DNA of 64,000 nucleotides from contig JACPEP010000015.1 in NCBI GenBank assembly GCA_016183425.1, positions 1 to 64,000 of the forward strand, in the 5' to 3' direction. Origin of the DNA: Chloroflexota bacterium. GTDB lineage: Bacteria; Chloroflexota; Dehalococcoidia; JACPEP01. Under the pieces are notes generated by a model. The model was not told the DNA's origin, ran no database searches, and saw nothing but the letters and a program-made list of their open reading frames with translations. Below, piece by piece: positions 8,750 to 25,184 of the stretch. The translations under genes and the position numbers were made by a program. The stretch's first letter is position 1; each line of letters begins with the position of its first letter.

Positions 8750-10102
8750 TCAGTTGGCCCATACCCGTTTTAGGAAGCCGCCGATGTCCACCGCCTCCCG
8801 AGGTCCCACCATGATCTCCCATCCGGATAGCTCGTCCTCCAACTCTCCGCGCAGCACGGCTACGGCGCCGGGGATGATTAGTTTGCGGTGCCGCACTGAG
8901 TCCTGGGCGTTAAAGCCCTTTACTGTTTTGGCGATCTTCTCGGCATCAAACTTTCCGGCTGCCCAACTAGTCAGAACGGAAAGGCCTTCGGTGTCGGCGA
9001 TGAGAAGCCAGGAGGGGAACCCACTGGCCTCCACCTCTCCGGCCACGGAGAAGTAGGTAAGGGAGAAGTTGGTGGTGATGAGGAGAGGGCTGTTGTCTCG
9101 CGGGCTGCCGATGGTGTACATGCCGGGGGACACCTGAATTGGCTTCTGAGGATCGGTGTAGATATTCTGCCTTAAGGTGAGGAGCGGGTAGGCGTGACCA
9201 GGGGAAAAGTGATCCAGAACGATAATGTTGGCGTACTTGGCCACATGTTCTCCGGCCAGGAGGACCTCCTCCTCCGGCGTCGCTGCCCCTTCGCCGGGGA
9301 AAGTAATTACCGGGTAGCCCAAGGGTCGGAAGTTCTTTTTTAGGGCCAGGCGACGAATCTGCGTCAAGGCCTCTAGAGAGGAGGCAAAGCCTCGGGTGCC
9401 GGGGTCGAGGACGATGTCCTCCACTCCTGCTTTGGCCGCCAGGTCTGACAGCTCGGCCAGTTGGCCCAGACCGTCTTCGGCGCGGATAGCCAGGGGGCAT
9501 TGGTACTTCTTGGCCAGCTTTATGACGCCCTCGGAGTTGTGGCTATCGGCGGCGTAGATGAGGGGTCTCTCCTGGCCTACCTTTTCTAAAGCCGTCTCCA
9601 GGGCCGAGGGGTCTTGGGATATGAGGACAAGGGGTAGCTGCGATTTGGCCCGAATGGTAGCGACGCACTGGGCGAAGGAGGAGGGATTGTGAGAGCGGTT
9701 GTCTACGGCAAAACCGTTAGGGCGCAACTCCATGCCCACTCTTTCCAGACTATAACTGGCCACCTCTGCCACCAGGGATTCTACTTCCGCGGCGGGTTGG
9801 TTGTCAGCGACGCGCACCATGATGCCGGTGGGGTTGAGGAAGGTTTTCTCGTGGCGGAAGAGAACCGTTTCGTTGCCCACTTCCAGCTTTTTGTCTCCCA
9901 CTCCTATCGTCACCAGGCGCATGGGGGGTTTGGCGGCAGCCTCCAGGGCCGCCGCGGCCTCGGGAGAGACATGGGGGCATTTGGAGAGTTCGATTCCCTT
10001 TTGGGCCAGCTTCATGGCAAAGGCGAGGCACGTGGGCTGGCCGCACTCCTTACAGTTGGTCTTCGGCAGGTGTTTGTAAATCTCGATGCCTGTTAGAGCC
10101 AT
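8750..10102 (-). CDS. acsC: Corrinoid/iron-sulfur protein large (gamma) subunit
   Basis: Carries the methyl group on cobalamin between AcsE and acetyl-CoA synthase. The product is 450 residues, close to known AcsC. The N-terminal [4Fe-4S] domain has C17, C20, C25 and C42, in the pattern used for cobalt reduction. The middle is a TIM barrel (SLEALTQIRR region) and the C-terminal ~120 residues form the cobamide-binding domain. ATG 10102 is set by GGAGG at correct spacing and by the MALTGIEIYKHLP start; upstream in-frame sequence has no family similarity. It follows acsD after 29 bp. Confidence 0.92.
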   Translation of the reverse strand: MALTGIEIYKHLPKTNCKECGQPTCLAFAMKLAQKGIELSKCPHVSPEAAAALEAAAKPPMRLVTIGVGDKKLEVGNETVLFRHEKTFLNPTGIMVRVADNQPAAEVESLVAEVASYSLERVGMELRPNGFAVDNRSHNPSSFAQCVATIRAKSQLPLVLISQDPSALETALEKVGQERPLIYAADSHNSEGVIKLAKKYQCPLAIRAEDGLGQLAELSDLAAKAGVEDIVLDPGTRGFASSLEALTQIRRLALKKNFRPLGYPVITFPGEGAATPEEEVLLAGEHVAKYANIIVLDHFSPGHAYPLLTLRQNIYTDPQKPIQVSPGMYTIGSPRDNSPLLITTNFSLTYFSVAGEVEASGFPSWLLIADTEGLSVLTSWAAGKFDAEKIAKTVKGFNAQDSVRHRKLIIPGAVAVLRGELEDELSGWEIMVGPREAVDIGGFLKRVWAN

Positions 10103-24396: not shown

Positions 24397-25014
24397 TTAT
24401 CCGAAGAGGCCTCGGATGTTAAGCTCCAGGGTCAGGGGAGCGTCTCCGCTCCCTCCCCCTACCGGGAGCTTCACCCGGAAGTGGTGGGGCCCTCCCATGC
24501 CGGACATCATATTCAAATCCATCCGCAGGGTCAACTCCTCGCCCGGTTTGATAATGCCATTGGCGGGCACAGCTACGGGGTTTCCCTCCATGTTATTGAG
24601 GACGAAGGCATTGCCGGTGGTGGCGGGACCCGCCACCAGGAAGGGTGGTCAGCATCCCTCCAGAGTCTGGACGCCATCCTTGGGGAAGGTGACGGTCACC
24701 GGTGCCGGGCTGGCGTTGCGTAAGTGGAAGGTGTAACTAATCCAGCGATCCAGGGGCACCTTGCCCAGGTCCACGTCGGTGGCCGATACCTCCAGCGGCC
24801 CCACCCTCTGGAAGCCCGCGGCCGGAGTACCCACCTGAGGCCGCTGCTCGGCTTCGCCGCCTCCCGTAAATCGGGGAACCAGCACCAGGGCCAGGACCAC
24901 AATTGCGAGCCCTGCCAAAGCCCAAAAAAGGTATCTTACCGGACCTGGTTGCCCCTGGTTCTTCTTGCCCGCGCCGTGGGCCCCTCCTCCACCGCGTCTT
25001 TTGTCAGCGCTCAT
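24397..25014 (-). CDS. Candidate selenoprotein, membrane-anchored (in-frame TGA)
   Basis: Two reading frames, 25014-24652 and 24648-24397, are in the same phase and separated only by a TGA at 24651-24649. Read through, they give 205 residues. A basic, Gly-rich tail is followed by one transmembrane helix (about 27-46), then an extracytoplasmic domain of DUF1573-like Ig type: a strand (YTFHLRNASPAPVTV), the motif LEGC-U122-PP, and a C-terminal IKPGEELTLRMDLNMMSGMGGPHHFRVKL. TGA at 122 directly follows C121, so Sec would sit in a vicinal redox or metal pair. A hairpin of SECIS type starts 11 nt after the TGA. Sequence continuity, conserved-looking residues on both sides and reading phase argue against a random pseudogene, which remains the alternative. 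Confidence 0.65.
24619..24637 (-). promoter_or_regulatory. Candidate bacterial SECIS hairpin
   Basis: Downstream of the in-frame UGA the mRNA can fold GGUGGCGG / CCGCCACC (8 bp) with loop GUC, or 7 bp with loop GGUCC. The loop starts 19 nt after the UGA. Bacterial SECIS elements are known to place a small loop with an early G about 16-37 nt from the UGA, so position and loop both fit. The same bases are coding, as is normal for bacterial SECIS. Confidence 0.55.
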
Positions 25015-25184
25015 GATTTTCCTACTCTCCTGTTGATACGTACCGGCTTACCCTCGTATTTGTGGCTCCATGGGCTAACTTCTCTGTCTAACCGTTTCCC
25101 CCCGCACTGTCTATTGTAACTCTTTTCACAGCCTAAAGGAAAGAGTAGGTACTGCGGCAAGGCGGGCCGGATTGATACAGAACG

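Follow-up and report, generated by a model that had tools for sequence, protein, structure and literature searches.

A putative Cys-Sec pair and a covarying bacterial SECIS in a DUF1573-related protein of Chloroflexota: a well-supported new selenoprotein subfamily

The window (i.e. the whole stretch of DNA that was analysed: 64,000 nt, positions 1 to 64,000 of contig JACPEP010000015.1) belongs to a Chloroflexota genome (2.70 Mb, 95.3% complete), and harbors on its minus strand a gene whose reading frame runs from ATG to TAA with a TGA (24651-24649) as its sole interruption (Table 1). The first-pass annotation had described this arrangement as two same-phase open reading frames split only by TGA in a Cys-TGA-Pro-Pro context, which agrees with our reading of the frame (Gly-Cys-TGA-Pro-Pro; protein context ...VQTLEGC-U-PPFLVAG...). 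The proposal that both sides belong to one membrane-anchored Ig-type domain was likewise borne out by the structure model, in which a single helix (residues 25-49, with a stretch rich in Lys/Arg ahead of it) is followed by an Ig-type beta domain. This AlphaFold model is of moderate quality (pLDDT 69.5) and was built on a shallow alignment of 3 sequences (the window protein and its relatives L009 and L010); the Foldseek neighbours of its beta domain include CEP192, HYDIN, OCRL ASH and other PapD/MSP-like domains. The protein is thereby predicted to be anchored by one N-terminal helix (in place of which several relatives carry a lipobox-like, i.e. lipoprotein-like, signal), with a probable N-in topology that would leave the DUF1573-type Ig domain exposed outside the membrane.

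Table 1. Features of the candidate selenoprotein locus (window coordinates).
Feature	Position	Strand	Details and basis
Selenoprotein gene (very probable), 205 residues, Sec as residue 122	24397-25014	-	ATG 25014-25012, stop TAA 24399-24397
Likely ribosome binding site, AGGAGAGTAGG	25021-25031	-	Read from sequence; inferred
Predicted transmembrane helix, residues 25-49	24868-24942	-	Structure model
DUF1573-related PapD/ASH-like (Ig-type) domain, approx. residues 71-205	24400-24804	-	Profile comparison, structure model
Cys121, codon directly before UGA	24654-24652	-	
UGA codon, putative selenocysteine U122	24649-24651	-	TGA here in 40 genomes, Cys in two relatives
bSECIS hairpin, 19 nt past UGA: 8-bp stem with arms GGUGGCGG (24637-24630) and CCGCCACC (24626-24619), loop GUC (24629-24627)	24619-24637	-	Folding, bSECIS model
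Motif M169-x2-G172-M173-x-G175-x-H177	24484-24510	-	Invariant columns of alignment A1; candidate second half of active or metal site

Relatives of the window protein were recovered from 20 of the 393 genomes in a class-level sample (protein search) and from 23 of the 400 genomes in a phylum-level sample (profile search), and nearly all of them carried one internal TGA. With the window's own genome counted, the GC-U-P form (TGA at the equal codon) is found in 40 genomes (18 of the class sample, the window's included, 20 more of the phylum sample, plus L009 and L010), and the carriers include three genomes assembled as single contigs (G397, G492 and G688). Outside the window's own phylum, sampling was by one scan of genome contigs, which yielded only two TGA relatives (L009, from a Nitrospinota MAG, and L010, from a Symbiobacteriaceae MAG of the Bacillota), both with the codon context found in the window (TGC-TGA-CCG-CCC); the family spans at least three phyla, and searches of IMG/VR and of plasmids produced no relatives. 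Protein conservation extends to both sides of the codon: the window protein shares 47% identity with L014 across residues 55-205 in an alignment that passes through the TGA, and in a 21-row alignment the invariant positions are G84, N100, G120-C121-U/C122-P123, M169, G172, M173, G175, H177 and F179 (some of the C-terminal ones are changed in L077, L032 and other later, more divergent finds).

The search for homologues with cysteine at the TGA position was successful in two cases, i.e. L021 (genome G036, GCCPP) and L027:888-1328 (genome G322, GCCPS), with a Sec paralogue some 600 nt away from the latter. In the family tree, the family stands apart from DUF1573 (support 100/99) and the G322 Cys copy is nested inside a Sec clade (support 100/99), so that Sec was most simply replaced by Cys there, rather than gained. 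We additionally observed a second, frameshifted copy of the gene close to a contig end (L095, G492:C1:4125200-4125528); measured over the junction, some 12 kb separate it from the intact G492 copy at 9844, and it may reflect an assembly overlap.

After the UGA and a spacer of 11 nt, the mRNA can form the 8-bp stem with loop GUC that the first-pass annotation had reported, with the loop starting 19 nt from the UGA. This hairpin (-14.6 kcal/mol on its own) fits all constraints of the published bSECIS model (3-9 nt apical loop with G in the first two loop positions, 4-16 bp stem, 16-37 nt from the UGA, MFE <= -7.5 kcal/mol; PMC13188914), while no credible Rfam match was obtained at the site. On a single sequence the test was unconvincing, since shuffling the 61-nt stretch 200 times gave 12 sequences that fold equally well (z -1.81), and the hairpin therefore had to be tested across relatives. 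In 41 aligned Sec genes the stem lies at the same place (8 bp, loop mostly GUN, spacing of 19 nt); 306 of its 328 possible pairs are formed, as opposed to 243.4 +/- 5.9 (maximum 262) when synonymous codons were shuffled 500 times inside each gene, which leaves protein and codon usage unchanged; the significance is inflated by the kinship of the sequences. Changes on both sides were found in 7 of the 8 stem pairs, and the covariation score (0.612 vs 0.256 +/- 0.022 in the shuffles) drops strongly when the partner is slid by one to three columns. Two genes with one extra codon (L029 and L032) keep the shape of the stem at a spacing of 22 nt, and the Cys forms L021 and L027:888-1328 retain only 2 of the 8 pairs, i.e. 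the hairpin is lost. A free search for the best-energy hairpin anywhere in the range gave a weak signal against synonymous shuffles (mean z -0.42, 42 genes), because GC-rich sequence yields some hairpin anyway; the fixed-register pairing test is thus the meaningful one. Synonymous shuffles, slid controls and the loss in the Cys copies all point in the same direction, and the case for the hairpin, which is a bacterial SECIS, is decisive only across relatives and not on the single sequence.

A sceptical reader might take the TGA for a genuine stop, an assembly error or a fresh nonsense mutation, with the downstream part being a pseudogene remnant or a separate small ORF, considering that chance alone often yields neighbouring same-phase ORFs with a stop between them, that the hairpin is not exceptional on the window sequence alone and that SelA is missing from the assembly. 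Against such an account stand 40 genomes that share the TGA codon and conserve the protein on either side of it, the covariation of the hairpin and the Cys replacement in two relatives, and we consider the probability of this account vanishingly small; a chance stop, a read error (at 24649-24651) and a pseudogene are ruled out by the conservation of the TGA.

The machinery for selenocysteine insertion was largely recovered from the window's genome. Out of the genes whose look-up had been proposed (selA, selB, selC and selD), the last three were found: SelB on contig C5 (354.8 bits in all, cut-off 242), tRNA-Sec with anticodon UCA on C12 (76.6 bits) and SelD at G000:C34:35317-36237 (L061), which has an in-frame TGA in its catalytic motif (CAGUAAKFG) and is a selenoprotein gene too. 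Neither the Pfam model nor the SelA of a relative, used as query, detected SelA in the 95.3%-complete assembly, a gap that we tentatively read as sequence missing from the assembly. We also looked through 20 genomes, almost all of which carry the family (for G091 this is unconfirmed), and detected SelA in 18 of them and tRNA-Sec in 19. As the frame stays open whichever residue goes in, the UGA might alternatively be read as Trp (by a changed genetic code) or by general read-through. This we regard as hardly credible, given that the genome also encodes tRNA-Sec (UCA), SelB and a SelD with its own TGA, that the SECIS hairpin is maintained, and that this position holds Cys in two relatives and Trp in none of the aligned set; a change of the genetic code is ruled out by the tRNA-Sec/SelB/SelD complement together with the Cys replacements.

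Taken together, the TGA shared by 40 genomes, the covarying hairpin and the Cys replacements argue that the gene encodes, almost certainly, a selenoprotein, as the first-pass annotation had suggested when it postulated a vicinal Cys-Sec pair. In the proposed mechanism, SelB with Sec-tRNA(UCA) would bind the hairpin after the UGA, and selenocysteine would be inserted at residue 122, creating a Cys121-Sec122 pair.

The annotation's further remark that selenoproteins of this fold were not known has to be corrected, as a DUF1573 selenoprotein (motif UGC) is contained in a 2026 review that inventories 119 prokaryotic selenoprotein families and subfamilies (PMC13188914 Table 1), and OS_HP2 (pfam07610, motif UxC) was reported in a 2008 survey (PMC2398784); the two entries probably denote the same family, in which Sec is located elsewhere. 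The window protein shows weak matches to DUF1573 and to HYDIN/ASH-type Ig domains (13.1 bits against Pfam PF07610, below the gathering cut-off of 26.1). Several family members exceed this cut-off (e.g. 44.5 bits at G419:C31, L067/L101), DUF1573 is matched by 19 of 21 members (best 9.8e-11), and hhalign relates the family to DUF1573 proteins of the same phylum with a probability of 99.4% (E 5.8e-21): the domain is a distant branch of DUF1573 with a PapD/ASH-like fold. In the hhalign comparison the C-G-C-T of DUF1573 appears to be set against E-G-C-U (the loop register being uncertain), as if the first Cys were gone, the second kept and Sec placed at the next (T) position.

The family differs from its closest counterparts in several respects. 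With OS_HP2 (NCBIfam NF041425) it shares the DUF1573 superfamily, a bacterial selenoprotein nature and Sec near a CGC motif; however, that model gave only weak matches in 10 of 21 tested members (best 36.1 bits, curated cut-off 100) and none to the window protein, Sec occupies the first position of UGC/UxC there and follows a single Cys here (GC-U-P), and the family adds a conserved M..GM.G.H motif. The cysteine form of DUF1573 (e.g. L097, L098 and L099) has a homologous domain with an Ig/PapD-like fold, but carries CGCT instead of EGCU/EGCC (EGC(U/C)P) and forms a separate clade (100/99). Other selenoproteins with vicinal Cys-Sec (SaoL, SaoC, HgcA, KCU-star/DUF466, MbdU and CopZ-like 2Fe-2S form 2; PMC13188914) are members of different families and have the dipeptide alone in common with it. 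By name and motif, the family is absent from the 119-entry 2026 inventory (PMC13188914), and no mention of the GC-U-P motif was found in the literature searched. None of the scanned members attains the cut-off of any NCBIfam model, and existing annotations therefore probably end these proteins at the UGA. As the scores lie far below the OS_HP2 model and Sec is found at another position (the review, PMC13188914, assigns proteins to separate subfamilies when their shared domain carries Sec at different positions), a new selenoprotein subfamily, within a superfamily where selenoproteins are already known, is well supported; selenoprotein identity and subfamily placement are, jointly, highly probable. 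Two divergent relatives were seen with other Sec contexts, namely L094 (G406:C277, SCUP) and L096 (G507:C226, GGCTU), with hairpins of 8 and 6 bp, respectively, 19 nt past the TGA; it seems that Sec has come to occupy several different positions within the superfamily.

To approach the function we surveyed 42 neighbourhoods (the window's included, within about 5 kb) and counted motifs, without a background rate: the number of neighbourhoods with a hit was 15 for PCYCGC proteins, 13 for GRxWCxxCP/Fer4_5-like membrane proteins, 10 for cupredoxin-like proteins, 8 for CxxCH proteins and 4 for P-type ATPases. On example neighbours Pfam confirmed PCYCGC, Cupredoxin_1, COX2, Cytochrom_C, Fer4_5, CcmE, CcmF_C, DsbD_2, DSBA and rhodanese, and a Fer4_5 neighbour also adjoins the gene in the Nitrospinota relative L009. 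The window copy itself is flanked by an MFS-type transporter upstream and tRNAs downstream, with no PCYCGC, Fer4_5, cupredoxin or cytochrome-type genes alongside, and PCYCGC was not found in the window's genome (in a search without positive control). PCYCGC proteins (PF13798), themselves a selenoprotein family of the inventory (PMC13188914), recur beside the family (neighbourhoods of L042-L060 and L127-L146), and the two may possibly form a functional pair. The Symbiobacteriaceae copy is immediately followed (L010:2100-2400) by a peroxiredoxin-like gene that also contains an in-frame TGA (FTPV-U-TQQ) and appears to be another selenoprotein gene, arranged in tandem with the first.

These neighbourhoods suggest, as the most likely mechanism (one that we advance tentatively), that the Cys-Sec pair, perhaps with the Met/Met/His motif, would act as an extracytoplasmic selenothiol which reduces disulfides and/or holds Cu(I) while copper and cytochrome c proteins are assembled or maintained; its re-reduction may proceed through membrane electron carriers (4Fe-4S Fer4_5 or DsbD/CcdA-like proteins), genes for which adjoin the family gene in many relatives. 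As this role is drawn from the neighbours of other copies, and not from those of the window copy, we infer it with caution, and the more definite statement that Cys-Sec on a PapD/DUF1573-type domain has, with the Met-Met-His motif, a part in copper or cytochrome c assembly on the outer side of the membrane is, in our judgement, rather doubtful. There is a nearly even chance that the pair instead handles peroxide, arsenic or mercury, or acts as a redox switch within a structural domain of the cell surface (choice-of-anchor D/ASH-like), with no link to copper or cytochromes: several known CU selenoproteins handle metals or organometals (MerB-like SaoL, MbdU and HgcA; PMC13188914), weak choice_anch_D matches were obtained, and the window's own neighbours are uninformative. 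Speaking against these possibilities are the recurrent cupredoxin, cytochrome c, Fer4_5, CcmE/F and DsbD genes and, with regard to mercury and arsenic, the lack of any recognisable Hg or As gene recurring in the neighbour clusters.

The subfamily adds another Sec position to the DUF1573 superfamily and would be a case of adjacent Cys and Sec residues on a fold other than thioredoxin. Its unusually rigid SECIS (fixed spacing, loop mostly GUN and rich covariation) offers a training or test case for SECIS finders, and the Sec and Cys paralogues found side by side in G322 make selenium and sulfur directly comparable. If the role in copper or cytochrome c assembly holds true, selenium would take an active part in respiratory copper/heme maturation in these organisms.
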